64,000 bases of DNA from Limimaricola pyoseonensis. Its GTDB lineage: Bacteria; Pseudomonadota; Alphaproteobacteria; Rhodobacterales; Rhodobacteraceae. Numbering within the stretch: position 1 is the stretch's first letter; the number at the start of each line of letters is the position of its first letter. This document shows positions 10,060 through 48,679 of the stretch, piece by piece. The translations under genes were made by a program, and so were the position numbers. The stretch lies in the NCBI RefSeq assembly GCF_900102015.1, contig NZ_FNAT01000008.1:1-64000 (forward strand). The letters run 5' to 3'. The notes beneath the pieces were generated by a model. The model worked only from the letters and a program-made list of their open reading frames with translations, did not search any database and was not told the origin of the DNA.

Positions 10060-10134
10060 GGGGGACATGATCGCGCCGCCGCACCGGAAATGGGGGACAT
10101 TTCGGCGCGAATAGGGGACATCTTGGATGTCCCC
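10060..10134. repeat. Four GGGGACAT repeats (iteron/operator candidates) upstream of the initiator gene
   Basis: GGGGACAT occurs at 10061-10068, 10093-10100 and 10114-10121, and inverted (ATGTCCCC) at 10127-10134. The last two form a palindrome with 9-base arms GGGGACATC and GATGTCCCC separated by three bases. Several copies preserve one or two extra G residues before the core. Such clustered repeats upstream of a plasmid rep gene usually bind the initiator protein for replication and autoregulation. Confidence 0.75.
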
Positions 10135-10201
10135 CAATACCAATACATACCGATTTCCATCCGGAAATGGATTGGCGCCAGGACGCCGATCCGGAGTTCG
10201 C

Positions 10202-10230
10202 TTGACAGAATCGAGTTTCCGGACGCAAAT
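10202..10230 (+). promoter_or_regulatory. Candidate promoter of the initiator gene
   Basis: A perfect TTGACA (10202-10207) is followed after 17 bases by GCAAAT, a poor -10 match. It lies downstream of the GGGGACAT repeats and about 85 bases before the initiator start. The -10 is weak, so this is tentative. Confidence 0.35.
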
Positions 10231-10314
10231 CAGGAGCAGTTGGGGAAAGGCGTTGCAAAGACGGGCCACCCTGCGAACGGTGGCCGAGCTTTCCGTTCAT
10301 CGAGGAGCAGTAAG

Positions 10315-31065: not shown

Positions 31066-34000
31066 GCGAGGCAGCCCATCTCGCACAGCAGAAGCGCCTC
31101 CGTCGCCTCGTCGGCATGGGCGGCATGGGCATAGGCCGGCGCCTCGCTGCGGATCGCGAAGGCGTCGATCACCGCGTCGAAGTTGCGGCCGCCCCAGCTG
31201 TGGCCGAAGGTCAGGTCGTGCCGGCCGTTCTGCGACAGCGGGTCCATGCGCGCCTCGTCCTCGAGCACGCCGTCGAGCCACAGCGTCAGCCGCCCGGCAT
31301 CGAAGCGCAGCGCCATCTCGTGGCGCAGCCCGTCATCGACCGGCGCGTCCTCGGATTCGAGCACCGTGACGGTGCCGTCGTCGCTGGTGGCGCGGACCCG
31401 CAGCTCGCCATGGGAATCGACCACCACCACGAGGCTGCCCTGTCGGCGGAACAGGTCGCCATGGCCCTCGCCGGTGAAGGCGAGGTCGATGGCGAAGCTG
31501 TCGGCCCCGAGGATGTCGTCGACATGCTCGAGCGCCACGCGCGCCGCCGTCCCGGTGGGGGCGAGCGCCATGCCGTCGGCCGCGACCGGCCCGCCCAGAT
31601 CGACCGGCCCGGCGTCGCCATGGGCGGTGAAGCCGCGCCCGGCCGCGAAGTCGAGCAGCAGCGCGTCGAGCGCGGCCTCGTCCAGATCCGGCAGCGGCTG
31701 CGGCGCGGGCCCGGACCCGGGCGCGGGCTCCATGCCGGGCTCGATGCCGGGGGAGGGCACGGGGTCGGGCTGGGTGCCCGATTGCGGCGGCGTGGCCGGG
31801 GTTTCGGGCGTCTCTGGCGCCGGCGCGCCGGGGGTGATCACCTCCGTCTCGGGCCGTTCGGGGAAGTCGGAGGCGTTCTGCGTGAGCGCGAAACCGGTGA
31901 TCCGGCCGTCGAAATTGGCGCCGCCCCAGGGGTGGCCGAAGGTCAGGTCATGCGCGCCGTCGCGCGCCAGCGGCCCGGCCTCTTCGGCAGCGGCGCGGGC
32001 GCCGTCGACCCAAAGCTCGAGCCGGCCCGCCTCGTAGCGCAGCGCCACCTCGTGGCGCGCCCCGTCGGCAAGGCCCGGCCCGGAGACCAGCCGCGTCTCC
32101 TCGCCCGCGGCGTCGCTGGCGCGGAACACCAGCCGGCCGCTGCGGTCGATCTGGGCGCTGAAGCTGCCCTGCAGGCGGAACAGCTCGCCCGCCCCGCGGC
32201 CCGCGACCGCGAAGGCGATCTCGTATTCCTCGGCGGTGAGCATCGGCGCCACCTCGGCGCGCGCCACCTCGAGCGCCACGCCGCGCCCGAGATCGAGCGC
32301 GCCGCGCCCGGCCTCGGCGAAGCTCCACAGCTCGGGCGCGGCGATCTCGACCGGCAGCCCGGCCTCGGCGCGCCGCCCGTCGGGCAGGCGCAGCGTCAGC
32401 ACCACGTCATGCGCGCCGCCCTCGGCATAGGCATGGCGCAGCACCATGCCCTCGGCGCGGCTGCCGTCGCCGAAGCTCCACTCGTAGCGGGTGCCGGCCG
32501 GCGGCGGCGCGCCGTCGAGCAGGCTGTGGCGCGCGTCGAAGACCCGCAGCGCCGCCTCGCCCGGCTCGGCGGTGACGTGGAACCGCGCCACCAGCCCCTG
32601 CGGCGCCTCGGCCGCGGCGCCGACGCCGAGCCGGTCGACCAGCCCGCCGGGCAGCACGGCGAGACCGGCCTCGCCCAGCGTCGAGGCGACGAAGGAATCG
32701 CCGTAGAAGCCCGGCGCCGACGGGTCATCGGGCTGCAGCACGGCATTGCCGCCGACCTGCCAGCTCGGCTGGCCGGAAAAGCCGCGCAGGCCGCCGGTGG
32801 CGTTGCCGGTGATCACCACGTTCAGCGCGTCCTCGGCGACGCCGATCGACGGCCGGCCGAGCGCGCCCTCGAACGGCTCGCTCTGCGGGCCGCCGCGGGT
32901 CTCGAGCAGGGTGTTGTTGCGGATCAGCAGCCCGTCGATCTCGCCGACATTGATGCCGTGCATGTGGTTGTTGAGGATGACGTTCTCCTCGATCACGAAG
33001 TCGCGGTAGAACATCTCGCGCCCGGCCAGCCCCTTGTCGACCAGCTCGTTGCGCATGAAGATCGTCTGGGTGAAGCCGCCCTCGCCGATATCGAAAAGGT
33101 TGCCGCGGATCGTCACGTCGCGGCTCGGCGCGGTGGTGCCGGTGGTCCAGACCTGGATCATGTCGCGATGCTCGGTCCAGCCCGGCAGGCCGAAGGTGTC
33201 GCGGAAGACGTTGTCCTCGACCAGGAGCCCCGTCACCTGGTGCACGTCGAGCGCGTCGTTGCGCATGTGGTGCAGCGCGTTGCCGCGCATCACGAGGTCG
33301 GCGCTTTCCTCCAGCGTGACGCCGGTGCGGAAGCGGGCGATGTCGTTGCCCTCGAGCGTGACCCGCTGCGCGCCCCGGACCTGCACGCCGCCGCCGGTCG
33401 CCAGCCCGTCGGCCGGGCTGCCGGTGCCGCGCGCGAGGTCGCCGTCGATCACGCTGTCGCGGATCGCGATGTCGCGGCTGTCGGTGATGCTGACGGCGCG
33501 GGTCCAGTGCGGGTCGCCGGGGCTGTAGACGTAGTCGACGACCACGCCCTCGAGGCTGAGATTGGCGGCGCCGCGCAGCGTCACCGCGTCGAACACCGCC
33601 GGGTCGTCGGGGTCGGCCGAGCGGATCACCACCTCGGAGGCGAACTCGGCGTTCTGGCCCATCCGGCCGTGCTGCAGCGCCAGCCGGCCGTACTGGCCGC
33701 CCTCGAGCAGCAGCACCTCGCCGCCCTGCGCGGCGGCGAGCGCGCGCGCCAGCCCCTCGGCGTCCTCGATGCGGATCGCGCCGGCGGGGGCCGGCTGCGG
33801 CTCGGCCAGCGGTGTGAAGGACGCCGCGTCGGCCTCGCGCGGGCCGTGGCCGGCGCGGGGCGCGGCGGCGTCGGGCGCGGCCGGCTCGACCGTGACGCCG
33901 GAATGGTCGGCGAAGGCCGCCTGCAGTTGCGGCGCGGTGCCGCGCAGGGTGATGCCATCGGCCTCGACCAGCCGGATCTCGGGGCCCGCGGCCAGCGCCG

Positions 34001-34247
34001 GCCAGTCCACCGCCAGCCCCTCGAGCACCACGCCCTCGACCCGCTCGAGCACGACGCCGGTGAAGCGCGGCGGGTCGAAGGGGTCGGCGGCGGCGATGGT
34101 GACGCCGGCGGGGAAGGGCGCGCCGGGGCGCGCCAGTTCGAGTATGCCGAAGGCGCCGCCGGCCAGCTCGATCCGGGCGCCCGGCGCGGCGGTGGCGAGC
34201 GCCTCTTGCAGGGCGGCGGCGGTGTAGACGGTGGTCGGCAGGGTCAT
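31029..34247 (-). CDS. Large extracellular parallel beta-helix protein with PKD and two LamG-like domains
   Basis: A 1072-residue multidomain protein. Residues ~1-560 hold right-handed beta-helix repeats (ITDSRDIAIRDSVIDGD, VEDNVFRDTFG, FVIEENVILNNHMHGINVGEI), the fold of pectate, alginate and other polysaccharide lyases and epimerases. A PKD-like domain follows (YEWSFGDGS, HAYAEGG). Two concanavalin/LamG-like modules end in nearly the same block, HDLTFGHPWGGANFDG and HDLTFGHSWGGRNFDA, and are separated by a Pro-rich linker (~800-850). No signal peptide is visible, so export would be unconventional. The helix lacks the DPHD motif of AlgG-type epimerases. A role in trimming or modifying the polysaccharide is inferred. 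The spacer before it is 355 bases and carries a perfect inverted-repeat motif. Confidence 0.85.
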   Translation of the reverse strand: MTLPTTVYTAAALQEALATAAPGARIELAGGAFGILELARPGAPFPAGVTIAAADPFDPPRFTGVVLERVEGVVLEGLAVDWPALAAGPEIRLVEADGITLRGTAPQLQAAFADHSGVTVEPAAPDAAAPRAGHGPREADAASFTPLAEPQPAPAGAIRIEDAEGLARALAAAQGGEVLLLEGGQYGRLALQHGRMGQNAEFASEVVIRSADPDDPAVFDAVTLRGAANLSLEGVVVDYVYSPGDPHWTRAVSITDSRDIAIRDSVIDGDLARGTGSPADGLATGGGVQVRGAQRVTLEGNDIARFRTGVTLEESADLVMRGNALHHMRNDALDVHQVTGLLVEDNVFRDTFGLPGWTEHRDMIQVWTTGTTAPSRDVTIRGNLFDIGEGGFTQTIFMRNELVDKGLAGREMFYRDFVIEENVILNNHMHGINVGEIDGLLIRNNTLLETRGGPQSEPFEGALGRPSIGVAEDALNVVITGNATGGLRGFSGQPSWQVGGNAVLQPDDPSAPGFYGDSFVASTLGEAGLAVLPGGLVDRLGVGAAAEAPQGLVARFHVTAEPGEAALRVFDARHSLLDGAPPPAGTRYEWSFGDGSRAEGMVLRHAYAEGGAHDVVLTLRLPDGRRAEAGLPVEIAAPELWSFAEAGRGALDLGRGVALEVARAEVAPMLTAEEYEIAFAVAGRGAGELFRLQGSFSAQIDRSGRLVFRASDAAGEETRLVSGPGLADGARHEVALRYEAGRLELWVDGARAAAEEAGPLARDGAHDLTFGHPWGGANFDGRITGFALTQNASDFPERPETEVITPGAPAPETPETPATPPQSGTQPDPVPSPGIEPGMEPAPGSGPAPQPLPDLDEAALDALLLDFAAGRGFTAHGDAGPVDLGGPVAADGMALAPTGTAARVALEHVDDILGADSFAIDLAFTGEGHGDLFRRQGSLVVVVDSHGELRVRATSDDGTVTVLESEDAPVDDGLRHEMALRFDAGRLTLWLDGVLEDEARMDPLSQNGRHDLTFGHSWGGRNFDAVIDAFAIRSEAPAYAHAAHADEATEALLLCEMGCLAQAVPEQFFPLG

Positions 34248-34602: not shown

Positions 34603-35643
34603 TCAGCCGAAGGCGCGGCGCGCGGCCTCGGGCGACAGCCGGCCGCGCACCGCGCGCGGCGGCGGCAGGCCGAGGCTGCCGGCCAGAAGCGCGCGCGCCT
34701 CGGCGCGAAAGCCGCGTAGCCCGAGCTGCGCCGCCTTGGCCAGCGAATAGGCCAGCGCGCCGGGCAGGGCGCGCGGCAGGTGGCGGCGCACGAAGCGGAT
34801 CCGGCCGCGATGCTTGAAGTAGAGCGAGAAGGGCGAGGCCGGCCGCGCAAGCGTGGGCGAGCCGATGGCGCTGCCGGCGCGGTGATAGACCACCGCCTCG
34901 GCGCAATAGGCGATCGGCAGCGCGCCGCGGCGCATCGCCCAGTCCACCTCCTCGTAATAGAGGAAGTAGTCCTCGGGCATCGGCCCGGCGGCGGCGCGGA
35001 AGGCGCGAGAGGTGACCATGCTGCCGCCCATCACGAAGTCCAGCGCCTCGGCCGGCGGCGGCGGCGTCGCCGCCAGCGGCCGGCCGAGATGGATGTTGCC
35101 GGTGACGCCGGTGCGCCGGTCGAGCGTGCCGCCGTCGATCTGGATCTGCTCGGGCGTCTCGAGATAGGCCATGCGCCCGCTCATCACCGAGAACCCGCCC
35201 GCCGGTTCCGGCGCGGTGGCGAAGGCGGCCGGCGTGGCGGGCGGCACGGCGGTGTCGGGGTTGAGGATCCAGACCCGGTCGGGCCCGCCGCCGGGCCGCG
35301 CCGCGAGCGTCTCGAGGCCGCGGTTCACCCCGGCGGCGAAGCCGGCGTTGAGCCCGGCCTCGACCAGCGTGACCGCGTGGCCCGAGGGCCCCTCGGCCCC
35401 GTCGAGCGGCAGCGGGCGGGCGGCCGCCGCCAGCGCGAAGGGCAGCGCCGGCGCCGGGCCCGGCCGGGCGCCGCCCGCGGCCCAGCCGCGCAGCAGCGCC
35501 GGCGTGCCGTCGGTCGAGCCGTTGTCGACCAGCACGATGTCGAGCCGCAGCCCGGTCGCGGCGAGCAGGCTTTCGAGGCAGTCGAGGATCACGGCGGCGG
35601 AATCGTAGGTGACGATCACGACGCCCAAGCGGGGCAGGGTCAT
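34603..35643 (-). CDS. Family 2 glycosyltransferase (rhamnosyltransferase-like)
   Basis: A 346-residue GT-A enzyme. GVVIVTYDSAAVILDCLESLL opens the nucleotide-binding domain, with IVLVDNGSTDGTP, VEAGLNAGFAAGVNRGLE and the metal-binding WILNPDTAVPP. PEDYFLYYEEVDWAMR provides the catalytic region of the rhamnosyltransferase/dTDP-sugar branch. The start ATG overlaps the stop of the upstream Wzy-like gene by 4 bases, so the two are co-translated. Donor and acceptor cannot be read. Confidence 0.92.
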   Translation of the reverse strand: MTLPRLGVVIVTYDSAAVILDCLESLLAATGLRLDIVLVDNGSTDGTPALLRGWAAGGARPGPAPALPFALAAAARPLPLDGAEGPSGHAVTLVEAGLNAGFAAGVNRGLETLAARPGGGPDRVWILNPDTAVPPATPAAFATAPEPAGGFSVMSGRMAYLETPEQIQIDGGTLDRRTGVTGNIHLGRPLAATPPPPAEALDFVMGGSMVTSRAFRAAAGPMPEDYFLYYEEVDWAMRRGALPIAYCAEAVVYHRAGSAIGSPTLARPASPFSLYFKHRGRIRFVRRHLPRALPGALAYSLAKAAQLGLRGFRAEARALLAGSLGLPPPRAVRGRLSPEAARRAFG

Positions 35644-37085
35644 GGCTGGCGTCTCCAGAGCGGGCGGATGTTGCGCGCCAGAACCGGCCGCGGCGCGGGC
35701 AGGGCCGGCGGCCGCCGGGCGGGGCGCGGCGCCGGCGGCGCGGCGGCGGGAAAGCGGGTGAAGACCGGCCCGGCGCGGTCTGGTTGTGGCGCGGCATTGG
35801 GTGTGGCGGGCGTGGCGGCGCCCTGGTCGGGCTGCGCGTTCAGCATCCATTGCCCGGCCCCGAGCATCAGCATCACGAAGATCAGGATCTCGCCCCACAG
35901 CGCCACGGTGCCGGCCACCAGCACGCAGCCCAGCATGGCCAGCGTCCAGCCCAGCCGCAGCGCCTGCAGCGCCGGGTCGGGGCCGAGCTCGCGGCGGTTG
36001 ATCCGCACGAGGCTGAGCCCCAGCGCCGTGCCGAAGAAGACCAGCGCCGGCAGGCCGTGCACGATCGCCAGCAGCAGCCAGAAATTGTCGATGCTGGCGC
36101 TGACCATCCAGTGCGGCCGGGCCCAGTAGTTGTCGCCCACCCCGAGCCATGGCGTGCGCGCGACCTGCGCGCTGCCGTATCGCCAGATCTGCTCGCGGTA
36201 GCTCGCGGTGCTGGAATCGAGCGCCAGCCGCGTGCTGATCGCCACCAGAGCGTTCTTGGTGCTGAGCAGGTCGAGCAGCAGGTAGAGCCCGCCGAGGCTG
36301 AGGCCGATCTCGCGCCAGGGCCGGGCGCTGCGCCGTGCCGCCAGCCGGTGCCACAAAAAGAGCGGCCCCTGGAACATGAGCGCCAGGAGCGGCCCGCTCG
36401 ACACCGACAGCAGGCAGGCCGCGCCGATCAGCACCGCCGCGAGCCCGCGCAGCACCGGCGCCAGCCCCAGCCCGACGACCACCGGCGCGAAGGCCAGCAT
36501 CGCGAAGACGCCGTAATGGATCGGGTGCGCGAAGACCCATTGCGCGCGGTAGAGGCCGAGGCGCGGCTCGTAGTCGTTCTCGACGAAGGTCGAAAACGGC
36601 GTGTGGTCGCGCACCAGCTCGATGATCAGCGGCCGGTCGGCCAGCGCCTCGATCAGCGCGAAGGGCAGGCTCAGCGCCACGATCCAGAACAGGAAGCGCA
36701 GCAGCGCGGCGAAATCCGCCCGGTCGCGGACCAGCACCCGGCCGGCCATGTAGCCGCCGAGGATGGCGAGGCCCTGCTGCCCGGTATAGGCGACGAAGCG
36801 GCCCGGCGTGTTGACCAGCATCGACAGCGACAGCCAGCCGACATAGAGCACGAAGAGCAGGTCCACGAGCCCCAGCCGCAGCCGCCCGCTCAGCACCCGC
36901 ATCAGCAGCATGGGGTAGAGCGCGATCAGCACCAGCAGCGAGGGGGTGAGCCGGAAGCCGGCGATCTCGAAGGCGACGGGCACCACCAGCGACACCAGCA
37001 CCAGCCGCGCGCAGGCCCGGCGGCCGGCGCTGCCGGCGGCCGGCGCGGCGGAAAGCAGGGGCGATGCACCGACCGAAGCCGTCAT
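35640..37085 (-). CDS. wzy: O-antigen polymerase/ligase-like (Wzy) membrane protein
   Basis: A 481-residue protein with about ten membrane helices (LVLVSLVVPVAFEIAGF, LLVLIALYPMLLM and others). A large extracytoplasmic loop lies around residues 270-330 with ISTRLALDSSTASYREQIWRYG and LGVGDNYWARPHW, which matches the Wzy_C/O-antigen ligase region. The last ~80 residues are a Pro/Ala-rich tail. It would polymerise lipid-linked repeat units in the periplasm. It is translationally coupled to the glycosyltransferase downstream. Confidence 0.88.
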   Translation of the reverse strand: MTASVGASPLLSAAPAAGSAGRRACARLVLVSLVVPVAFEIAGFRLTPSLLVLIALYPMLLMRVLSGRLRLGLVDLLFVLYVGWLSLSMLVNTPGRFVAYTGQQGLAILGGYMAGRVLVRDRADFAALLRFLFWIVALSLPFALIEALADRPLIIELVRDHTPFSTFVENDYEPRLGLYRAQWVFAHPIHYGVFAMLAFAPVVVGLGLAPVLRGLAAVLIGAACLLSVSSGPLLALMFQGPLFLWHRLAARRSARPWREIGLSLGGLYLLLDLLSTKNALVAISTRLALDSSTASYREQIWRYGSAQVARTPWLGVGDNYWARPHWMVSASIDNFWLLLAIVHGLPALVFFGTALGLSLVRINRRELGPDPALQALRLGWTLAMLGCVLVAGTVALWGEILIFVMLMLGAGQWMLNAQPDQGAATPATPNAAPQPDRAGPVFTRFPAAAPPAPRPARRPPALPAPRPVLARNIRPLWRRQP

Positions 37086-37173: not shown

Positions 37174-37186
37174 CAACCTTGAATTG
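37174..37186. promoter_or_regulatory. Inverted-repeat motif copy 4 (CAACC TTG AATTG)
   Basis: An 8-of-10 match, 88 bases upstream of the Wzy-like start (minus strand) and 105 bases before the acyltransferase start (plus strand). CAACAATTGTTAC nearby at 37147-37159 may be a second, weaker element. Confidence 0.45.
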
Positions 37187-37261
37187 TGTCGTGCCACCTT
37201 TAGCCCGCGCCCGGCCGCCCGGCGCGGCAAGGCTTGCAAGATCGTCCCAGCCGGGGATAAT

Positions 37262-37274
37262 CGACCTGTGGTTG
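37262..37274. promoter_or_regulatory. Inverted-repeat motif copy 5 (CGACC TGT GGTTG)
   Basis: A 9-of-10 match in the divergent spacer between the Wzy-like and acyltransferase genes, 17 bases before the ATG of the latter. Confidence 0.55.
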
Positions 37275-37291
37275 CATGTGGGAGGATGGTG

Positions 37292-37786
37292 ATGCAGGGC
37301 GAGATGGCCAAGGCAAGAAGGCGGGGCCTGAACAGGCTGGCGCCGCTGCGCGCGCTGCTGATGGCGGCGGCGCGCCTCTACTACACACGCATATGGGGCA
37401 TGGACATCGACCCTTCGGCGAAGTTCTCGCTCTCGGCGCAGTTCGACCGCACCTTCCCGATCGGCGTGCATGTCGGGCCGAACAGTTACGTCGCCTTCGA
37501 GGCGCGGGTGCTGACCCATGACCGCACGCGCGGGCTCTACCTGCACACGCGGATCGGCGCGAACTGCTTCATCGGCGGCCGGGCGCTGCTGCTGCCGGGG
37601 GTGGAGATCGGCGCGGGCAGCGTGGTTGGGGCGGGGGCGGTGGTGACGCGTTCGGTGCCGCCGGGCAGCCTCGTGGCCGGCAACCCGGCGCGGGTGCTGC
37701 GCGCGGGCATCGATGTCGGCGCCTATGGCCGCTTCGCCGGGGCCGACGCCACGGAGGCCGCCCTCGCCACGGCGGGGCTGACCTGA
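37292..37786 (+). CDS. Left-handed beta-helix (hexapeptide) acyltransferase
   Basis: A 164-residue protein from ATG 37292, which is properly spaced from GGGAGG (ATG 37286 abuts it). After a basic N-terminus come hexapeptide repeats, including VGPNSYVAFEARVLTHDRTRGL and the typical C-terminal IGGRALLLPGVEIGAGSVVGAGAVVTRSVPPGSLVAGNPARVLR. This is the WcaF/maltose-acetyltransferase type of O-acetyltransferase and would decorate the repeat unit. The acyl acceptor is unknown. It heads a cluster of SGNH hydrolase and spike genes on the same strand. Confidence 0.92.
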   Translation: MQGEMAKARRRGLNRLAPLRALLMAAARLYYTRIWGMDIDPSAKFSLSAQFDRTFPIGVHVGPNSYVAFEARVLTHDRTRGLYLHTRIGANCFIGGRALLLPGVEIGAGSVVGAGAVVTRSVPPGSLVAGNPARVLRAGIDVGAYGRFAGADATEAALATAGLT

Positions 37787-38505
37787 GGCGGGTTCTGGCG
37801 GCGGCGCTGGCCGTTCTGGCGACGGGCCTGCTTCTGGCCGCCGCGCCGGGGGGCGAGGCGCCGCGCGACCGGCCGCTGCCGCCGCTCGCGGCGGACGGTC
37901 CGCTGCGGGTGGCGCTGCTCGGCACCAGCCTCAGCGCGCGCTACGACTGGCCGGCCCGGCTCGGGGCGCGGCTCACCGCCTGCCTCGGCCGGCCGGTGAT
38001 GGTCGAGGTGGTGGCGCGCCCGGGCGCGCATTCGGGCTGGGGGGTGGCGCAGGTCGGCCGCGTGGCGGCGCTGCGGCCCGACCTCGTGCTGATCGAGTTC
38101 GCGATCAACGACGCCGACCTGCGCGACGGCCGGTCGCTGGCGCAGGCCGGGGCCGCGCATCGCGCCATCGTCGCGGGGCTGCGCGCGCAACGGCCGGGCG
38201 CGGCGATCGCGCTGATGACGATGAGCCCGGCGCAGGGCCCGCGCGGCTGGATGCGGCCGCGGCTCGGCGCGCATCTGGCGCAGTACCGCGACCTCGCCGC
38301 GGCGCTGGATCTGGGGCTCGTCGATCTCACGCCGCGCTGGCGGGCGCTGCCGCGCGCGGCGCGCGGGCTTAAGGCGGACGGGCTGCACCCCGAGCCCGGC
38401 GTCGCGGCGGCGGTGATCCTGCCGGTGCTGGCGCGCGCCATCGCCACCGCGACGGGGGCGCCGGGGGCAACGGGGGCAACGTGCGCCGGCCCCGCGCCGT
38501 CTTAA
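37783..38505 (+). CDS. SGNH/GDSL-type esterase with signal peptide
   Basis: About 240 residues. A signal-like segment (VLAAALAVLATGLLLAAAP) precedes the catalytic blocks: Ser in LLGTSLSARYDW, Asn in FAINDADLRDG, and the Asp/His pair in ADGLHPEPG. The frame continues upstream of the first GTG at 37909 into this signal peptide, so the real start is further left. The most likely start is CTG 37783, which overlaps the acyltransferase stop (CTGA) behind GGCGGGG; this unusual start is inferred. A secreted esterase beside an acyltransferase suggests cycling of acyl groups on the polysaccharide. Confidence 0.8.
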   Translation: MRRVLAAALAVLATGLLLAAAPGGEAPRDRPLPPLAADGPLRVALLGTSLSARYDWPARLGARLTACLGRPVMVEVVARPGAHSGWGVAQVGRVAALRPDLVLIEFAINDADLRDGRSLAQAGAAHRAIVAGLRAQRPGAAIALMTMSPAQGPRGWMRPRLGAHLAQYRDLAAALDLGLVDLTPRWRALPRAARGLKADGLHPEPGVAAAVILPVLARAIATATGAPGATGATCAGPAPS

Positions 38506-38575
38506 CCCGGCTGCGGCAGGATCACTTGCATCAGGGCCCGCGCCGTTCGCGGGCCGGCGACGCAAGGAGGCGGCG

Positions 38576-38842
38576 ATGCCGGTGATCGACAGTTTCGCGG
38601 GACAGGTGGCCGGGCTCGACAGCCCGGTCGCGCAGGCGGCGGCGGTGGTGCCGTCGGACGACACGGACCTGCCGCAGGCCAGCCGGGCGCTCTACCTCGG
38701 CACCGGCGGCGACCTGCGGGTGACGCTGCTGGGCGGGGCGGTGGTGACGTTCCGCGCCGCGGCGGCGGGCTGGCACCCGCTGCGGGTGGCCCGCGTCCAC
38801 GCCACCGGCACCGGCGCCGCCGACATCGTGGCGGGCTGGTGA
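38576..38842 (+). CDS. ghsA: GTA-type head-spike base protein (RCAP_rcc01079 family)
   Basis: An 88-residue protein whose pattern PSDDTDLPQASRALYLGTG, then VTLLGGAVVTFRAAAAG and RVARVHATGTGAADIVAGW, matches the small spike-base family named after R. capsulatus rcc01079 (GhsA). In R. capsulatus such proteins anchor fibres on GTA heads that bind the capsular receptor. AAGGAGG precedes the ATG. It is coupled to the large downstream gene by a TGATG overlap, as a base-plus-spike pair would be. No GTA or phage structural genes are in the window, so it may complement a GTA cluster elsewhere or be an independent surface component. Confidence 0.85.
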   Translation: MPVIDSFAGQVAGLDSPVAQAAAVVPSDDTDLPQASRALYLGTGGDLRVTLLGGAVVTFRAAAAGWHPLRVARVHATGTGAADIVAGW

Positions 38843-41127
38843 TGATCGGCGTCGGGATCGGGGTGGGCGCGTGGCGGCGGGTCGCGGCGGCGGTGCCGCC
38901 CGCGCCGGCCATGCTGACGCTCGACGCGCTGCCGCGCGACGGGCTGGTGCTCGACACCGGCGCGGCGGCGGGGCGCGACGCGGCGGTGCTGGGGCTGTCG
39001 GGGACCGGCACGCCGGGGCGGGTGGTGCAGGGGCGGGCGCGCTCGCTCGACGATGGCGGGGCAAGCTCGACGCCATGGGCCGACATCGCCACCATCGACG
39101 CCGGCGGCGACTGGTCGGGCGCGCTGAGCTGCCCGCGCAGGACCTCGTGGCTCGCGGCCGAGGTGCGCATCCGCGACAACCCCGCCGTCGGCGCGCAATC
39201 GGCCGAGCGCTTCGGCGCGGGGCATGTCATCGCGATCTGGGGCCAGTCCGAATGGGACCGGATGCTCAACCCCTTCTTCGACGGCACGGCGAAGGCGGGC
39301 GTGACCCATCCGGGCGACGTGACGCACATCTATCACGGCCGCTCGCTCAGCGGCAGCCATGCCGGCACCGGCGCGGCAGGGGTGCGCGCCGTCACCGTCG
39401 ATGCCGCGACGGCAGCCACCGCCGACTGCACCAGCGCGATGATCGCCATGGCCAACACGCTCTCGGCCGCGCGGCCGGGCGAGAAGTTCGCGGTGCTGTG
39501 GCAGACGCTGTCGGGCACCTCGTGGGAGGCGGCGGCCGACGACGCGATCGCCACCCGCCGCTGGATCGACGACCGCGCCGTGCACGACCACGCCGTCCCC
39601 GACGGCTCGGGCCGGGTCGGCGCGGTGATCCACAGCTGGTTCGCGGCGCCGGGCAGCCTGGCCGAGCATTACGGCGCGGCGGCGGTGCCGTTCTTCCTCG
39701 GGGTCGATCTCTCGGGCGCGGCCGTCGCCGTGCCGGGCACGATCACCCACACGGGCGGCAGCTACCACGCCGACCACACATGTGCCGAGCTTTACGACTA
39801 CGCCCATGCCCGGCTGGTGCCCTTCGGGCCGCACGGCTTCATCGAGCCCGCCGATCTCGACAGCGCGACGACGCTGCGCGGCGGCGGCACGGCGGTGCGG
39901 CTGGCGAACAAGCAGGCGGCGGCGCGGTCTTGGCGCGACACGGCCGCCCTGCCGGCGCTGGCGGGATACTTCACGCCCGCCACCTTCAACGCCACCGCGG
40001 TCAAGCTCGGCCATGACGACGGCGCGGGCGGCTGGACCGACCACACCCACCCCGATGGCGGCTCCGATGACGGGCTGCCGCGGCTGGCGCGCTTCACCGC
40101 GCTCGCCGCACTGGAGGGGATGGGGCTGGCCGGCTGGGCCTCGCCGGTCTTCGACAATGCCGCCTGGCAGGCGGACGGCGCCTATGCCGAGATCTGGTCG
40201 AGCGCCGGGCCGATCACCACCAACCGCATCGCCGGGGGGCTGCCGCCGCTCGGCGCGACCTTCCCGCACTGGACGGAGGTGGCGGGCTGGCAGATCGACG
40301 GCGTGCCGGCCGCGCGGGCCGAGATCGTCGCGGGCCGGGTCAGGATATACCCCAACGACGGGGCCTTCACCGACGCGACGGTGTTGAGCTTCGGCGAGGG
40401 CGGCGGCACGGGCGCGATCGAATGGCCGGAGGATGCGCGCAACGCGCTGTGGCGCGACCTGCCGCTGGTCGATGTCGGCGCGCCGACGGTCGAGGGCCTG
40501 CCGCTGCGCACCCTGCCGGACGCGGCGCTGCTGGCAAGCACCGTGCCCGGCGCGGCCAAGTTCGCCACCACAGAGGCGGGCCCGTGGTTCGGCTCGGGCG
40601 CGGCGGGCGCGACGATCCCGGCCGGCACGCGGCAGATGACGTGGTACGCCAAGGGCCGGGTCGACGCCTTCGCCGGCGGCACGCGGTCGCTCTTTCATGT
40701 CACCGGGGCGAAGATGGACCTGCAGGTGCTGTCGAACGGCGCGCTGCGATACTCCCTGACCGACACGGCCGGGCAGCAGGTGGCGCAGACCACCACGCCG
40801 GCGGGCACGATCACGCTGGGCGTCAGCTACGAATTCCTGCTGGCCTTCGACCTCGCGGCCGGCTGGCTGCGGCTGTTCGTGGACGGGGTGCAGGTCGGGG
40901 CGTCCGCCGCCTTCGCGACCACGGGCGAGATGGACCCGGCCCGCAACATGCGGCTGCTCCATCGCATCTCGGGCGACACCCCGGCGGGCGAATGGGAGCG
41001 GCTGGCGATCTGGATCGGGCAGGCCAGCGCCGACGGCGCGTTGCCCGGCGCGGCGCCCCATCACGAGGTGACGGGCCCGGCCGCCACCGCCAATGCCGAT
41101 GCGTGGCGGCAGGGGGCGGCGGCGTGA
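38842..41127 (+). CDS. Spike-like protein with SGNH/sialate-esterase-type domain and C-terminal LamG-like domain
   Basis: A 761-residue protein that follows the spike base with a shared A (TGATG). Residues ~120-330 contain IAIWGQSEWDRML, similar to the GQS block of carbohydrate O-acetylesterases, and GSYHADHTCAELYDYAHARL with a candidate catalytic His. A middle beta-rich part has GLPPLGATFPHWTEV. The last ~190 residues resemble a concanavalin/LamG fold (FLLAFDLAAGWLRLFVDGVQVG). No signal peptide is seen. By position it corresponds to the GhsB spike. An enzymatic spike that deacetylates capsule would resemble phage tail-spike esterases. Catalysis is inferred. Confidence 0.72.
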   Translation: MIGVGIGVGAWRRVAAAVPPAPAMLTLDALPRDGLVLDTGAAAGRDAAVLGLSGTGTPGRVVQGRARSLDDGGASSTPWADIATIDAGGDWSGALSCPRRTSWLAAEVRIRDNPAVGAQSAERFGAGHVIAIWGQSEWDRMLNPFFDGTAKAGVTHPGDVTHIYHGRSLSGSHAGTGAAGVRAVTVDAATAATADCTSAMIAMANTLSAARPGEKFAVLWQTLSGTSWEAAADDAIATRRWIDDRAVHDHAVPDGSGRVGAVIHSWFAAPGSLAEHYGAAAVPFFLGVDLSGAAVAVPGTITHTGGSYHADHTCAELYDYAHARLVPFGPHGFIEPADLDSATTLRGGGTAVRLANKQAAARSWRDTAALPALAGYFTPATFNATAVKLGHDDGAGGWTDHTHPDGGSDDGLPRLARFTALAALEGMGLAGWASPVFDNAAWQADGAYAEIWSSAGPITTNRIAGGLPPLGATFPHWTEVAGWQIDGVPAARAEIVAGRVRIYPNDGAFTDATVLSFGEGGGTGAIEWPEDARNALWRDLPLVDVGAPTVEGLPLRTLPDAALLASTVPGAAKFATTEAGPWFGSGAAGATIPAGTRQMTWYAKGRVDAFAGGTRSLFHVTGAKMDLQVLSNGALRYSLTDTAGQQVAQTTTPAGTITLGVSYEFLLAFDLAAGWLRLFVDGVQVGASAAFATTGEMDPARNMRLLHRISGDTPAGEWERLAIWIGQASADGALPGAAPHHEVTGPAATANADAWRQGAAA

Positions 41128-41134
41128 GGCACGC

Positions 41135-42517
41135 TCAGGCGGGGGCGGCGCCGTGGCGGCGCAGCTCGGGCATGGCCAGCAGGCAGGTGAGGCCGAGCGC
41201 GGCCAGCGCCAGCGCCCCGGCCGGGCCGGCGAGCCCGGTCATCGGCCCCGCCACCGCCAGCCCCATCAGAAGCAGCACCGGCCCGAGCGGCCGCAGCACC
41301 GGGCCGAGCCGCATGCCTGCGCGCCGCCGCGCCAGCCACAGCGCGACCATGAGCCCCCCGGCCTCGGCCAGAAGCCCGACCGCGATCACCGGCTCGACCC
41401 GGCCGGTGCGGGCGGCGAGCCACAGTGCCAGCGGCAGCGCCGCCACGCGCAGCAGGTTCGAGGCCACCGCGTTGCCGGTGCGTCCGCGCGCCAGCGCCAC
41501 CACCGCCGGGCCGCCCTTGGCCAGCCACAGCGCCTGCACCAGCGCCAGCGCCCCGAGATAGGGCAGCATGTCGAGATAGGCGGGCCCGAGCACGAGCCCC
41601 ACCAGCGGCGCGCCGCAGGCCGCGACCGCCGCCACCAGCGCCACCGCCATCGCCAGATGCGCCTGCGCCGCCGCCGCGGCGAGGCGGTCGAACCGGTCGG
41701 CCGCGCCCGCCGCCTGCGCGGCGGCCAGCTGCGGCAGGTAGAAGCTCTGGGCGCTGCGGCGCAGGATCTGCGCCGGCGTCAGCGTCAGCGTGCAGGCCAT
41801 CGCGAAGAGCCCCAGCGCCTCGAGCCCCAGTTCGCGCGCGACGACGATCCGGTCGCCGTTGAACACGCCGAACAGCAGCACCCCGTTGAGCAGGAGCGGC
41901 CAGCCGAAGCGCAGGCTCTCGGCCATCGCCGCGCGGTCGAGCACGACGCGCCAGCGCCGCTCGGCCAGAAGATGCGAGACCAGCACCATCAGCACCGCCT
42001 GCGCCAGCACCGACCACAGCATCGCCCGCCAGTCCCCGAGCCAGAGCGCCAGCGGCACGCCGACGAGCAGCGCGCCCAGGGCCGGCAGCGCCGTGCCGAG
42101 CGCCAGCGGGCCGAAGCGCAGGCCGCGCCCGAGACGGTAAAGGTCGAGATGCACGAGCCCCTTGCACAGCGGCACCAGCGCCAGCGCCCGGTAGGCGCCG
42201 GCGGCCTCGGGCGCGCCCATGAAGGCCGCCGCCTGCGGCGCCATGAGCCACAGCGCCAGCGCCGCCAGCGCGCCGCGCAGAAGCTGGAAGCCCTGCAGCG
42301 CGGCCTGGAAGCGCGGCTCGCCGCCGCGGCGCGATTGCAGGATCTGCTGCTGCAGGCCGAGCTCGGAGGCCATCTCCATCGCCGCGACCACGATCGCGAA
42401 GCTTGCCGCGACGCCGTAATCGGCGACCGGCAGCAGCCGCGCCACCACGAGGTTGCGCGCCAGCAGCAAGAGCGCCGCGAGGGCGTTGCCCGACAGAAGC
42501 AGCAGCGCGGCGCGCAT
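41135..42517 (-). CDS. wzx: Polysaccharide flippase (Wzx, MOP superfamily)
   Basis: A 460-residue protein with about twelve membrane helices. It starts LLLLSGNALAALLLLARNLVVARLLPVADYGVAAS, the N-terminal signature of Wzx/RfbX-type flippases. SLRFGWPLLLNGVLLFGVFNGDRIVVARELG is the matching central repeat. It would move the lipid-linked repeat unit across the inner membrane for polymerisation by the Wzy-like protein at 35.6 kb. It starts 3 bases after the sulfotransferase stop, so the two form an operon. Confidence 0.92.
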   Translation of the reverse strand: MRAALLLLSGNALAALLLLARNLVVARLLPVADYGVAASFAIVVAAMEMASELGLQQQILQSRRGGEPRFQAALQGFQLLRGALAALALWLMAPQAAAFMGAPEAAGAYRALALVPLCKGLVHLDLYRLGRGLRFGPLALGTALPALGALLVGVPLALWLGDWRAMLWSVLAQAVLMVLVSHLLAERRWRVVLDRAAMAESLRFGWPLLLNGVLLFGVFNGDRIVVARELGLEALGLFAMACTLTLTPAQILRRSAQSFYLPQLAAAQAAGAADRFDRLAAAAAQAHLAMAVALVAAVAACGAPLVGLVLGPAYLDMLPYLGALALVQALWLAKGGPAVVALARGRTGNAVASNLLRVAALPLALWLAARTGRVEPVIAVGLLAEAGGLMVALWLARRRAGMRLGPVLRPLGPVLLLMGLAVAGPMTGLAGPAGALALAALGLTCLLAMPELRRHGAAPA

Positions 42518-42520
42518 CGC

Positions 42521-43291
42521 TCAGATCCGCCGCAGGCGGCGGCGCAGCCGCAGCCGCAGCCGCTGCCACGGCAGGCCGAGCCTTTGCAGGTCGCGGTCGC
42601 GGGCGGCGCGGAACTCGGGGTTGAGCGGTGGCGCGGGCCGCAGCGGGCGCGGCGCGTCGGGCACGTAGCCGAAGCGGTCGAAATCGGCGGCGTAGATGGT
42701 GGCGATACGGTCGAGATCCTCGGCCGTCGGCCGCACGCGGGCGCCCGACGCGCCGGCATAGGCGCCGCGCGCGTTCTCGGGCGGCAGCACCCGGTCGCCG
42801 CGCGCCGCGCCCTCGACCCCGTCGAGCCATGGGATCAGCGCGTCGAGACCGTGCTCGATATGAAACAGCGTGGCGCCCGCCGGCACGATCTCGGCCATCG
42901 GCCGGATGTGGTTGTCGAAGGCGAAGCGATCGCGCGCGAGGATGTCTGGCAGCCGCTCGAGCCAGTCGGAAAAGCCCATGTCCTCTGGGATGGTGCGCTC
43001 CAGCTCCTTCTGGAAGTGGAAGCTGCTGACCGCCCGGCCGACCGGGTGGCGCACGATGGCGAAGCAGGCGTCGAAGAAGTCGAGCGGGATCAGCCGGTCG
43101 AGCGTCGCGGCGTCGACATGCTGCGGCGAGCTGCGGCTCCAGCGCGAAGGCTCGGGCAGCGCGGCGAAGCGGCGGTCGTGGAAGGCGATCTCGCCGAAGC
43201 GCGCCGCGAGGTAGGAGGCCACGGCCATGCCGCCGCATTTGGGCACATGCGCGTAGTAGACCAGCCGGGACCCGGCCTTGAAGAAGGGCAT
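42521..43291 (-). CDS. Sulfotransferase-family protein
   Basis: A 256-residue protein with the two PAPS-binding signatures. VYYAHVPKCGGMAVASYLA near the N-terminus is the 5'-phosphosulfate loop, and FAIVRHPVGRAVSSFHFQKEL near residue 80 the 3'-phosphate loop. A very basic C-terminus (RLRLRLRRRLRR) may bind membrane or polymer. It would add sulfate to the polysaccharide, as in sulfated marine exopolysaccharides. It is co-transcribed with the flippase and is divergent from a glycosyltransferase across an inverted-repeat motif. Confidence 0.88.
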   Translation of the reverse strand: MPFFKAGSRLVYYAHVPKCGGMAVASYLAARFGEIAFHDRRFAALPEPSRWSRSSPQHVDAATLDRLIPLDFFDACFAIVRHPVGRAVSSFHFQKELERTIPEDMGFSDWLERLPDILARDRFAFDNHIRPMAEIVPAGATLFHIEHGLDALIPWLDGVEGAARGDRVLPPENARGAYAGASGARVRPTAEDLDRIATIYAADFDRFGYVPDAPRPLRPAPPLNPEFRAARDRDLQRLGLPWQRLRLRLRRRLRRI

Positions 43292-44353: not shown

Positions 44354-44408
44354 TTGCTAGGCTGGCGGGGCGACTACGCTCCGTACCGCGTTAACGAGAG
44401 GAATGTTC

Positions 44409-44954
44409 ATGAACCTGCTGAGAAAAGCCTGCCTGGCCGGGGCGCTGGCCCTGGTGCCGGCCCTGCTCCCGGCGGTGGGGTCGGCGGCCACCGTGCTGAG
44501 CGCCACCATCACCGATGGCGGCACGTTCGGGCTGAGTTCGCCGCATCACCACGTCGTCCGCTTCGAGGACGGCGATGTCGCCGGCGGCTACAGCTTCACC
44601 TTCACCAACGACACGGGCTGGGCCTCGACCTTCGGGATCACCGACGCGACGGTGCTGCAGAACGCCACGTTCAGCTTCGCCGACACCGGCGTGACCGCGG
44701 CCTGGGACAGCGGCGAGAGCTTCAACGTCGCGCCGGGCACCATGGCCGCCGGGCTTCGGGTCGTGACCCGGCTCGCGGCCGGCGCCTCGGACACGCTGCG
44801 GATCAGCTACGGCGATCCGACCGCGCTCGACGGCAAGCGCGAGGGCACCGGCACGATCGACATCGCGATCGCCGCGGTGCCGCTGCCGGCGGCGGGGTTC
44901 CTGCTGCTGGCGGGTCTGGGCGCGCTCGGCCTGCGGCGGCGGCGGGGCGACTGA
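44409..44954 (+). CDS. VPLPA-CTERM sorted surface protein 2
   Basis: A 181-residue secreted protein. The signal peptide ends near PAVGSAAT. A beta-rich body contains HHHVVRFEDGD and YSFTFTNDTGWASTF, with no Cys in the mature part. The C-terminus is VPLPAAGFLLLAGLGALG followed by RRRR, a complete VPLPA-CTERM sorting signal and presumably a substrate of the XrtD enzyme at 25.8 kb. ATG 44409 is preferred over 44403 by spacing from GAGAGGA. A hairpin with a short T-rich tail follows the stop. Confidence 0.88.
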   Translation: MNLLRKACLAGALALVPALLPAVGSAATVLSATITDGGTFGLSSPHHHVVRFEDGDVAGGYSFTFTNDTGWASTFGITDATVLQNATFSFADTGVTAAWDSGESFNVAPGTMAAGLRVVTRLAAGASDTLRISYGDPTALDGKREGTGTIDIAIAAVPLPAAGFLLLAGLGALGLRRRRGD

Positions 44955-45023: not shown

Positions 45024-45866
45024 TCAGCCGGCGTCGCGGCTGAGATAGCGGCAGCGGTTCAGCACCACGCCGAGCATGTTGGTCTGGGCCGCCAGCTCGC
45101 GTTCGCAGGCGTCGATCTCGGCGCTGGTGGTGCGCTCGGCGGCGGCGACCAGCAGCACGCAGTCGACCTGCGACATGAAGGCCATCGCGTCGTCGGCGGC
45201 GCGCATCGGCGGCAGGTCGAACAGCATCACCGTCGGCTCGAGCCGCGCCTCGACCGCCGCCACCGCGGCGCGGGCGCCGTCGCTCTGCAGCAGTTCCGCG
45301 GGGTTGCGGCAGCCGGGCAGGGCGGCGGCGATGGCGAGGTTGTCGCCGACGCGGCGGGCGCAATCCTCGATCCGGGCGCCGCCGTCGAGCACCTGCGCCA
45401 TGCCGGCGGCCGGGCGCAGCCCCAGCGCGCCGGCCAGCGAGGGCGCGCGCAGGTCCAGCTCGACCACCAGCGCCCGCTGTTCGGGCTGGCGCGCGAGGCT
45501 GAAGCCGAGATTGGCGGCGACCATGCTCTTGCCGCAGCCCGGCCCGGGCGAGGTGATCGCCACCCGCCGCCAGCCATGGGCGCGCAGCTGCTGCAGGAGC
45601 CGGGTGCGCAGCTGGTCGATCTCGGCCGCGCCGGGGCCGCCGCCGGCGGCGGCGATGCGCGCGCGCTCGAGCAGGCGCGGCTGCGGCGTGAAGCCCGGCA
45701 GCGCGGCCCAGCCTTCGGGCCGGCGCGCCACCGGGGCGGGCGCGTCGGGGCGTGCATCGGGGCGCGCATCGGGGCGCGCGGCCGGGCGCGGCGTGCGCAG
45801 CGCGGCGGCCGGCAGCCCCTCGCGCGCCGCGCGGGCCTTGGCGATGGCGGACTGGATTCTCTCCAT
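45024..45866 (-). CDS. BY-kinase/CpsD-like ATPase of polysaccharide export
   Basis: A 280-residue cytoplasmic ATPase. Walker A ITSPGPGCGKSMVAANLG is near residue 110, Walker A' VELDLRAPSLAG near 140, and Walker B VMLFDLPPM near 215. This is the BY-kinase pattern of Wzc/CapB/CpsD partners. The N-terminal linker has a 4-residue repeat (RPDA three times, encoded by a 12-bp DNA repeat). The C-terminus ends CRYLSRDAG with one tyrosine instead of the usual Tyr cluster, so autophosphorylation control may be reduced. It is the last gene of a three-gene operon with the Wzc-like protein and the ATPase. Confidence 0.88.
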   Translation of the reverse strand: MERIQSAIAKARAAREGLPAAALRTPRPAARPDARPDARPDAPAPVARRPEGWAALPGFTPQPRLLERARIAAAGGGPGAAEIDQLRTRLLQQLRAHGWRRVAITSPGPGCGKSMVAANLGFSLARQPEQRALVVELDLRAPSLAGALGLRPAAGMAQVLDGGARIEDCARRVGDNLAIAAALPGCRNPAELLQSDGARAAVAAVEARLEPTVMLFDLPPMRAADDAMAFMSQVDCVLLVAAAERTTSAEIDACERELAAQTNMLGVVLNRCRYLSRDAG

Positions 45867-45881
45867 GAAACGTCTCCGGGT

Positions 45882-47432
45882 TCAGGCGGCGGCGAGGGCG
45901 AGCTGGCCGACCGCGCGGTCGAGCAGCAGGTCGAGCGGGGTGATCTCGGTGTGCACCCACCACAGACCGGCCGGCAGGCCGACCAGCGCCCCGGCGAAGA
46001 GCGCCGCCAGCGCCGCCTGCCGGCGCCGGGCCTGGGCGCGGGTGCGGATGTAGGGCAGCGTCGCGAAGGGGGTGATGCCGAGCCGCGCCACGAGATCCTC
46101 GGGCCGGCGCACCGCGGCGCTGGTCATCTCCAGCAGCAGCACCGCGCCGATCCCCAGCGCCAGACCGCCCAGGATGCCGGCGGCGGCGACCACCGGCCGG
46201 TTCGGGCTGTCGGGTTCGTCGGGCGGCACCGCCGGCTCGACCACGCTGATCCGCTGGCCCTTGGCCAGCGCCTCGATCGTGTCGCCGGTCTCGGCGCGGG
46301 CGCGGCTGGCCAGCGCCTGGTCGTAGCGCGCCCGCAGCGCGGCGTGGTCGCGCTGCATCGCCTCGAGCCGGATGGCGTTGCCCGGCGTCGCCTCGATCGT
46401 CGCCTGCAGGCGGTCGATCTCCTCGCGGGCCTGCGCCCTCTGGCTGTCGAGATGGCCCATCTGGGCGTCGATGTCGGCGAGCTGCATCTCGAACATCGAC
46501 AGCGGCCCGCCGGCCTCGGCGCCGGCCGGCTGCAGCTCCTGCTCCAGCATGGCGATCTGCGAATCGAGCAGCTTCAGCCGCGGGTTCTGCGGCGACAGCA
46601 CCGCCAGCGCCCGCGCCCTATCCTGGCGCAGCTCGGCCAGCCGCAGCACGGCCGGGTCCTCGCTTTGCGGCATCGGCATCTCGCCCGCGCGCTCGCGCAG
46701 CGCCTCGAGCCCGTCGCGCCGGTCCTGCAGCGCGGCGGCGGCGCGCTCGACCTGGGCCAGCCGCTCCTGCGCGGCCGATTGCTGGCCGCGGCGGAAGTCG
46801 AGGCTGTCGGGCAGCGCGTCGAGATGGGTCTCGCGGAAGGCGAGGATCTCGGCGCCCTGCGCCACCAGCTCGCGGTCGAGCCGGTCGACCTCGGCCTTGA
46901 AGAACTCCAGCGTCTGGCTCGCCACCGCGGTGCGCAGCGCCACGTTCTCCTGCAGGATCATGGTGACGATCTCGTTGGCGACGGTGGCGGCGAGCTGGGC
47001 CGAGGCCGCCTCGAAGCCGACCCGCAGGATCGTCGCCTGCGCGGGCTCGCGCCGGGTGGCGGGGCCGCCGCTGCTGGCGATGGTGATGCGCTCGCGCAGG
47101 TCGATGACGACCTCGTCGGCGCTCATGTAGCGGCGTAGCTCAGGGTCCATCGCGTCGTAGATGCCGAGCCGGTTGGCCATCTCGATCAGCCGGCTGCGGG
47201 TCAGGATGCGCTCGCGGATGATCTGCAGCGCCTCTGTGACCTCGGTGCGCACCGTCGTCTCGGCGAGGTCCGACGGGATCTGCTCGGATTCGACCACCAG
47301 CGTGGCGTTGGCGCTGTAGGTCGGCGGCAGCACCATGGCGAGTGTGAGGCCCGTGGCGCTGCCGGCGACGAGGCACAGGAGGCACCAGTGCAGCCGGCGC
47401 AAGAACAGCGAGAGGTAGAATTTCAGGTCCAT
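45882..47432 (-). CDS. Wzc/GNVR chain-length determinant protein
   Basis: A 516-residue inner-membrane protein. An N-terminal helix (LHWCLLCLVAGSATGLTLAMVLPP) and a C-terminal one near residue ~425 bracket a large periplasmic coiled-coil region (RGQQSAAQERLAQVERAAAAL, LDSQIAMLEQELQP and others). The Wzz domain opens YSANATLVVESEQIP. The ATPase domain is encoded separately by the next gene downstream. It sets polymer length and bridges to the export channel. The gene starts 3 bases after the ATPase stop. Confidence 0.92.
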   Translation of the reverse strand: MDLKFYLSLFLRRLHWCLLCLVAGSATGLTLAMVLPPTYSANATLVVESEQIPSDLAETTVRTEVTEALQIIRERILTRSRLIEMANRLGIYDAMDPELRRYMSADEVVIDLRERITIASSGGPATRREPAQATILRVGFEAASAQLAATVANEIVTMILQENVALRTAVASQTLEFFKAEVDRLDRELVAQGAEILAFRETHLDALPDSLDFRRGQQSAAQERLAQVERAAAALQDRRDGLEALRERAGEMPMPQSEDPAVLRLAELRQDRARALAVLSPQNPRLKLLDSQIAMLEQELQPAGAEAGGPLSMFEMQLADIDAQMGHLDSQRAQAREEIDRLQATIEATPGNAIRLEAMQRDHAALRARYDQALASRARAETGDTIEALAKGQRISVVEPAVPPDEPDSPNRPVVAAAGILGGLALGIGAVLLLEMTSAAVRRPEDLVARLGITPFATLPYIRTRAQARRRQAALAALFAGALVGLPAGLWWVHTEITPLDLLLDRAVGQLALAAA

Positions 47433-47435
47433 CGC

Positions 47436-48311
47436 TCAGTCCGCCTTCTGCCACTGGGCCGGCGCCACCACCACCGGCGGGCGGGGCGGCTGGCCGGACA
47501 GGAAGAACACCCCGTCCTCGAGCACCTGCCGCAGCAGCGCGGCCGAGACCTGCGTCTCGCCGGCGGCGAAGGCGTAGGTCAGCGCCCGGTCGCAGAGCTG
47601 GTTGACGAGGCGCGGCACGCCGCCGCTGGCCTCGTGCACCAGCGCCGCGGCGGCGGCGGAGAAGATCTCGCGCCGGGCGCCGGCGCGCGCCAGCCGGTGC
47701 GCGATGTAGGCGGCCACGGTCGGCGCGCCCATCGTGCCGAGGTGGTAGCAGGAGGCGACGCGCTGCGCGAACTGGCTGAGTTCGGGGCGCGACAGCGTCT
47801 CGCGCAGCTCGGGCTGGCCGACCAGCACGATCTGCAGAAGCTCGTCCTTGCCGGCGTTGATGTTGGTGTACATGCGCAGCTCCTCGAGGTTGTCGGCCCC
47901 GAGGTTCTGCGCCTCGTCGAAGATCAGCACCACGCGCCGCCCCTCGGCGTAGCGCGCGATCAGGAAGGCCTGCAGCTGGCCGAACAGCTCGACATAGGTG
48001 GCGCCGGGCACCGGCGCCTCGCCGAGCGCCAGGAGCACCCAGCGCAGAAGCTCGCCGCGGTCGCCGAGCGCGTTCGAGACCAGCCCGACCACGAGGTCGT
48101 CCTCGAGCCCGCGCAAGAGGTGCTGCAGCAGGGTGGTCTTGCCGGCGCCGACCTCGCCGGTGACGAGGGTGATCGGCGAGCGGGTCAGCAGCCCGAATTC
48201 GAGCATCGCGAAGGCGCGCCTGTGGGCGTCGGACCAGAACAGGAAGTCCGGGTCCGGCACCAGCGTGAAGGGCCGCTCGGACAGCCCGAAATGAGAGGTG
48301 TAAATATCCAA
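47436..48311 (-). CDS. ExeA-like ATPase of PEP-CTERM/EPS loci
   Basis: About 291 residues from TTG 48311. The start DIYTSHFGLSERPFTLVPDPDFLFWS, then Walker A LVTGEVGAGKTTLLQHLL and Walker B RVVLIFDEAQNLG, match the XrtA/PEP-CTERM-associated ATPase family. The TTG is chosen because the family begins at this point; an ATG further upstream (48437) would add about 42 residues without family support. It heads the operon ATPase, chain-length protein, BY-kinase. It is divergent from the initiating sugar transferase across a 368-base spacer. Confidence 0.88.
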   Translation of the reverse strand: MDIYTSHFGLSERPFTLVPDPDFLFWSDAHRRAFAMLEFGLLTRSPITLVTGEVGAGKTTLLQHLLRGLEDDLVVGLVSNALGDRGELLRWVLLALGEAPVPGATYVELFGQLQAFLIARYAEGRRVVLIFDEAQNLGADNLEELRMYTNINAGKDELLQIVLVGQPELRETLSRPELSQFAQRVASCYHLGTMGAPTVAAYIAHRLARAGARREIFSAAAAALVHEASGGVPRLVNQLCDRALTYAFAAGETQVSAALLRQVLEDGVFFLSGQPPRPPVVVAPAQWQKAD

Positions 48312-48679
48312 GGGTCCAGCACCCGTTCCAACCAGAAAACCACGCCGCGCGCCCGTCCCCCCGGGCGCCCGGCCGGCCCCGCCACGGAGGCCTGACCCGG
48401 AGCATAGCCACACAACCCTTGCGCGAGAAGCCCCCAAATCGCACCCGTGTGGGGATAGGCCCGCGACGCAGGGTCATGGCGCGATTTTCGGCGGGTGATA
48501 CACGCAAGGGTTGCGTGACGCCAAACTTTCGCCCTAAAGTTGAATCGTGGTGGTGGACAATCCCTTGGGAAGAGAAGGCGCACTGTCGGACGCGCTCTCG
48601 CCGCAAGGCCCGTGCCCCTGCCAGCGGTGCCCTGTTTAGCGAGTAATGGCCGCCCGGTTCGGCGGCCCGGAGACCAGTG
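48312..48679. promoter_or_regulatory. Divergent promoter spacer between the ATPase and sugar-transferase genes
   Basis: 368 bases without a convincing gene. It contains the inverted repeat CACGCAA-GGG-TTGCGTG at 48501-48517, with perfect 7-bp arms, and a related sequence (CACACAACCCTTGCGCG) in the opposite orientation at 48409-48425. A further element, TAAAGTTG plus TGGTGG (48535-48553), resembles one before the GDP-mannose dehydrogenase gene. These are candidate operator and promoter elements for both operons. Confidence 0.55.

Follow-up and report, generated by a model that had tools for sequence, protein, structure and literature searches.

A predicted GTA-type head-spike pair with an acetylesterase-like fibre in a polysaccharide locus of Limimaricola pyoseonensis

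We analysed a stretch of 64,000 nucleotides from Limimaricola pyoseonensis (called the window below), in which a short spike-base gene and a gene for a 761-residue protein adjoin each other within a polysaccharide locus. As stated in the original prediction, acyltransferase and GDSL-type hydrolase genes lie on one side of the pair and a flippase gene on the other (Pfam). The features of the window are as follows.

569 to 1906, + strand: DUF2793 protein, likely GTA tail fibre (rcc00171-like), the sole copy in the genome (Pfam PF10983, E 9e-31; fibre-like PDB match)
1914 to 3032, - strand: Wza-like polysaccharide export protein, tail to tail with the tail-fibre gene (Pfam PF02563, E 3.3e-14)
35640 to 37085, - strand: Wzy/O-antigen-ligase-like polymerase (Pfam PF04932)
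37184 to 37786, + strand: hexapeptide-repeat acyltransferase, upstream of the pair and co-directional with it (Pfam); an orthologue lies beside the fibre gene in many relatives
37909 to 38505, + strand: GDSL/SGNH hydrolase, immediately preceding the base gene (Pfam PF13472)
38565 to 38570, + strand: ribosome-binding site AGGAGG of the base gene (sequence)
38576 to 38842, + strand: head-spike base protein, 88 residues, Rcc01079 family (NF048002, PDB 6tb9, phrog_12296)
38842 to 41127, + strand: head-spike fibre, 761 residues, with its ATG within the TGATG overlap (ORF sequence)
38845 to 38871, + strand: N-terminal anchor peptide IGVGIGVGA, residues 2-10, predicted to insert into the base pentamer (RcGTA register)
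39199 to 39876, + strand: SGNH-type carbohydrate-acetylesterase-like domain, spanning roughly residues 120-345 (Foldseek matches to 7kmm and SIAE, conservation)
40627 to 41016, + strand: LamG/pentraxin-like lectin domain, about residues 596-725 (weak Pfam match and fold matches)
41135 to 42517, - strand: polysaccharide flippase, convergent with the fibre gene (Pfam PF13440)
42521 to 43291, - strand: sulfotransferase of the polysaccharide locus (Pfam PF03567)
45024 to 49405, strand unassigned: polymerisation block of Wzc-like ATPase, Wzz, AAA ATPase and initiating sugar transferase, found beside the spike in relatives (Pfam)

Two further proteins are encoded nearby. The gene at 31029-34247 (- strand) codes for a 1072-residue protein with a right-handed beta-helix, a PKD domain and a double LamG domain, which is probably a polysaccharide lyase or epimerase; at many loci, relatives of this protein are encoded on the flanks of the spike. 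The small protein encoded at 44403-44954 (+ strand) ends in VPLPAAGFLLLAGLGALGLRRRRGD, which resembles an exosortase-sorted tail, and had no Pfam match.

The 88-residue protein is a head-spike base of the Rcc01079 type by the curated family cut-off. The NCBIfam model NF048002 ("spike base protein, RCAP_Rcc01079 family") scored this ORF at 99.1 bits (cut-off 28, E 1.3e-28), and the sequence also matched PDB 6tb9 (Rcc01079, E 3.4e-10) and phrog_12296 (E 4e-26). It is the single spike base above cut-off in the genome. The stop codon of the base gene and the ATG of the fibre gene share TGATG at 38840-38844, in agreement with the coupling of an Rcc01079-type base to a 761-residue protein that had been read from the DNA alone. 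Glu12 of the RcGTA base is a cation-coordinating acid; its counterpart in the window base, Asp15, was rejected as a diagnostic residue, since an acid occupies this position in only 28 of 121 bases.

Sequence libraries (Pfam, NCBIfam, PHROG and others) gave almost no matches to the 761-residue fibre. A LamG domain at residues 596-693 remained below threshold by sequence (18.1 vs 27.6 bits, Pfam), and a profile of the fibre found zero matches among the sequences of solved structures. No Pfam or NCBIfam match to an SGNH/SASA acetylesterase family exceeded the cut-off, and we therefore term the fibre merely acetylesterase-like. No search tied the fibre body to the 325-residue fibre of RcGTA. We then used an alignment of 21 fibre relatives as input for an AlphaFold2 model, which was of moderate confidence (pLDDT 73, pTM 0.61). 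The top Foldseek matches of the model were the carbohydrate acetylesterase XAC1771 (7kmm, E 5e-12) and sialate acetylesterases, followed at lower ranks by pentraxin, LamG and CBM lectins, so that the esterase-like and LamG-like domains originally proposed both find counterparts at the level of the predicted fold. Matches to Botulinum and other lectins were put down to the common jelly-roll lectin fold. Ser136, located in a GHVIAIWGQSE block, Asp311 and His312 were invariant in all 21 aligned sequences and may form a putative catalytic site. The likeness to XAC1771 and the sialate O-acetylesterases lies in the predicted fold of the fibre body and the GQS block of the putative nucleophile; however, these enzymes are not particle spikes, and their identity with the fibre is 18% or less. 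The modelled fold suggests carbohydrate binding. GDSL, SASA, LamG or CBM domains also occurred in other fibres adjoining spike bases, indicating that deacetylase or lectin bodies recur. At two loci of Frigidibacter sp. RF13 (L074 and L180), the base was intact and the fibre gene was broken across frames, possibly as a pseudogene or through an assembly error.

The N-terminus of the fibre has the register of the RcGTA head fibre, in which the peptide IALGLGLGL at residues 2-10 plugs into the base pentamer (PMC7296036); the window fibre has IGVGIGVGA at the same residues. When the fibre was modelled alone, the pLDDT of residues 1-19 was under 50. Just 12 downstream proteins fitted a strict regular expression for the anchor, and we instead scored alternation against shuffles of the same residues in 58 proteins whose reading frame opens at the stop of a spike base. 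Their mean score was 2.79, as opposed to 1.24 ± 0.13 for the shuffled sequences, and none of 5000 shuffles scored as high. The pattern extends to phages RcapNL (gp29-30) and Pben1 (p62-63), in which a short base gene likewise overlaps the gene of a fibre with an alternating N-terminus (MGLGLGIGLGL and MLIGLGIGIGF, respectively), although these pairs belong to phage genomes, and the bodies of their fibres are different and shorter. Exceptions to the anchor exist, as it was only partial in the downstream protein of RcapMu. The window fibre fits the GhsB type by its alternating hydrophobic anchor and its pairing with a spike base.

A search of the same genome for a GTA cluster found one on contig C11, where a single stretch holds genes for the megatron, NlpC peptidase, hub, tape measure, TAC, head completion protein, capsid, portal and large terminase. 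The megatron scored 1811 bits, and the capsid matched Rcc01687 with an E value of 2.8e-167. Most of an RcGTA-type head-tail cluster is thus present in the genome that carries the spike pair. The likely tail-fibre gene sits apart from this cluster, beside the Wza-like gene in the window.

Relatives of the fibre were found at 24 other loci in genome contigs labelled Rhodobacteraceae/Paracoccaceae or, for metagenome bins, more broadly; 22 of these were judgeable, the other two contigs being too short. The carriers of this fibre type include the culturable Defluviimonas/Albidovulum denitrificans. In 20 of the 22, fibre and spike base were immediate neighbours arranged tail to tail. Another relative had a base about 3.5 kb off, and Actibacterium ureilyticum had none within 10 kb and one about 90 kb off, apparently on the same contig. 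Polysaccharide genes were present at all 22 judgeable loci. The operon layout of the window is atypical, as base and fibre are convergent in most relatives. This last arrangement, in which base and fibre do not share one operon, would suit an ordinary esterase that modifies the polysaccharide of the locus and whose tie to the spike base is incidental, as would the position of the 761-residue gene near acyltransferase and GDSL genes and the LamG or beta-helix enzymes encoded in many such loci. However, the fibre begins at the base stop with an RcGTA-type anchor and, by eye, has no charged n-region of the signal-peptide type, the spike base is adjacent in nearly all judgeable relatives whatever the orientation, and the same domain follows a tail-tip gene in a tailed phage. 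We consider an ordinary esterase improbable. The phage domain is on contig IMGVR_UViG_3300048837_000139 (L184), where an esterase domain 48% identical to that of the window fibre is encoded at 9971-11017, directly after the tail-tip gene; it differs from the window fibre in its N-terminus, and no spike base was present in the stretch examined. Together with the anchor register and the GTA cluster in the genome, the base partners and the polysaccharide synteny of the relatives support the reading as a GTA-like spike pair. The outcomes that would have spoken against the original prediction (a genome lacking any GTA or phage together with homologues that are ordinary secreted enzymes lacking base partners, or absence of synteny with EPS genes in relatives) were not observed.

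Spike bases were carried by 138 of 397 genomes of the family. The GTA megatron was detected in 133 of these 138 genomes compared to 224 of the 259 without a base (P 0.0014), and the five base-carrying genomes without a detected megatron (G115, G142, G241, G250 and G393) indicate that the spike is not strictly bound to the GTA. Polysaccharide-family genes were nearby at the loci of three of the five (L110 in G142, L131 in G250 and L054 in G393). We further surveyed 100 spike-base loci of other genomes with a reach of about 9 kb, a set that overlaps with the fibre relatives (several loci are on the same contigs). GTA or phage structural genes of the families tested lay beside just one of the 100. 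This rarity argues against the pair being a prophage remnant or cargo outside the GTA, as do the intact reading frames of base and fibre and the fact that the base is usually a single copy per genome and nearly always accompanied by a GTA megatron. The many tailed phages with spike bases and the five genomes without a megatron are consistent with such an origin, to which we assign a very low probability.

At least two polysaccharide gene families were found near the base at 61 of the 100 loci. For 20 control regions from other parts of these genomes, the count was 2 (P 3e-5), the controls being arbitrary chromosome stretches that were not matched for accessory-genome location. With stricter families and E-values, the counts were 52 of 100 and 2 of 20 (P 4e-4). 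The remaining 39 loci, or about 39%, are exceptions without a clear polysaccharide context; their neighbours were mixed, comprising some NDP-sugar epimerases and mostly unrelated genes in a Pfam scan. Polysaccharide loci are hotspots of gene turnover. Considering this and the arbitrary controls, the spike-base loci might simply reside in accessory islands rich in polysaccharide genes, with no functional link between spike and polysaccharide. Several observations speak against that explanation, which we regard as rather unlikely. Two parts of the base tree showed similar enrichment (21/36 and 40/64), and displaced tail-fibre genes were likewise associated, with at least one polysaccharide family near 12 of 13 compared to 4 of 20 controls. 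The window's fibre type also kept specific neighbours; for example, the acyltransferase orthologue was found at 3 of the 6 surveyed loci with this type and at 2 of 94 others (P 0.001). Furthermore, the head spikes of R. capsulatus are known to bind capsule, and their genes adjoin capsule biosynthesis genes (PMC10218006).

The original prediction had also suggested a joint inheritance of spike specificity and polysaccharide structure as one cassette. Four of eight congeneric genomes, including that of the window, carried a base. Two of the congeners had different fibres, of 593 and 607 residues, with GQSN esterase motifs and the anchor, whereas the third had the base alone in view; the spike loci of all three were among polysaccharide genes, and one congener shares the Wzc/Wzz/AAA/sugar-transferase block with the window. 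In the base tree, which rests on few columns, the window base grouped with two loci of other genera (100/93), apart from the bases of its congeners. In the same tree, 19 of the 22 bases tied to the window's fibre type formed one clade, the other three and that of the window lying elsewhere; bases of at least four lineages are combined with this fibre type. It appears that the fibre tracks the polysaccharide locus more than the base, in support of fibre and coat genes being turned over jointly. The congener fibres and the mosaicism of the base tree contradict a fixed unit of base plus fibre; the cassette is therefore supported for the fibre with its polysaccharide locus and not for base and fibre together.

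Building on the computed base family, GTA cluster, anchor pattern, fold matches and recurrent genomic linkage, we consider it likely that the pair encodes a head spike of the organism's own RcGTA-type GTA, which binds and probably deacetylates the local polysaccharide and whose linkage lets fibre and coat change together. Five base copies would sit on each capsid pentamer, and the hydrophobic and glycine-rich N-terminus of one 761-residue fibre would thread into the base pentamer. The polysaccharide produced by the neighbouring genes, acyltransferases included, would then be bound and probably deacetylated by the acetylesterase-like and lectin domains, and particles could thereby attach to cells with the same surface type and get through their coat. 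With the fibre gene kept in the polysaccharide locus, fibre and coat would change together on recombination. We infer the assembly on the organism's own GTA, the binding to the local polysaccharide, the deacetylation and the selection for linkage. Since spike genes are commonly located among capsule genes, the coat and its reader may evolve together.

The closest known system is GhsA/GhsB (Rcc01079/Rcc01080) of the Rhodobacter capsulatus RcGTA, which shares the base family, the order of base to fibre, the anchor register, the position beside capsule biosynthesis genes (rcc01081-01086 in R. capsulatus) and a GTA cluster elsewhere in the genome. However, the RcGTA fibre has 325 residues and the window fibre 761, the latter with acetylesterase-like and LamG-like domains, and the window locus is of the Wzy type with sulfotransferase, acyltransferase and GDSL genes, unlike that of RcGTA. 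The adjacency of spike and capsule genes in R. capsulatus is already known. No description of a family-wide linkage between spike and polysaccharide genes was found in the literature searched. Judged within this scope, four points are new: the mosaicism, the anchor pattern, the fibre with its acetylesterase-like domain and the repeated occurrence of the linkage in the family. If the linkage is family-wide, genome sequences could be used to predict which cells receive GTA DNA, and the anchor pattern offers a simple handle for locating receptor-binding fibres in GTAs and phages that are uncultured. A spike with a predicted acetylesterase points to enzymatic passage of the coat over passive binding.

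More broadly, GTA adhesin genes, both head spikes and displaced tail fibres, might be held in receptor-building loci, so that a recombining locus carries receptor and ligand together; we put this forward tentatively, as a possibility with less than even prospects. If true, DNA borne by GTAs would be biased to cells with a matching coat, amounting to a linkage-based self-recognition for gene exchange in Rhodobacteraceae. The tail-to-tail layout of tail-fibre and Wza-like genes was seen again at one other locus (L258). A hexapeptide acyltransferase-like gene lay near the GTA megatron and tail fibre at L220, L226, L230 and L233-L235, and is perhaps the cysE1 of the RcGTA vicinity (PMC9552610).
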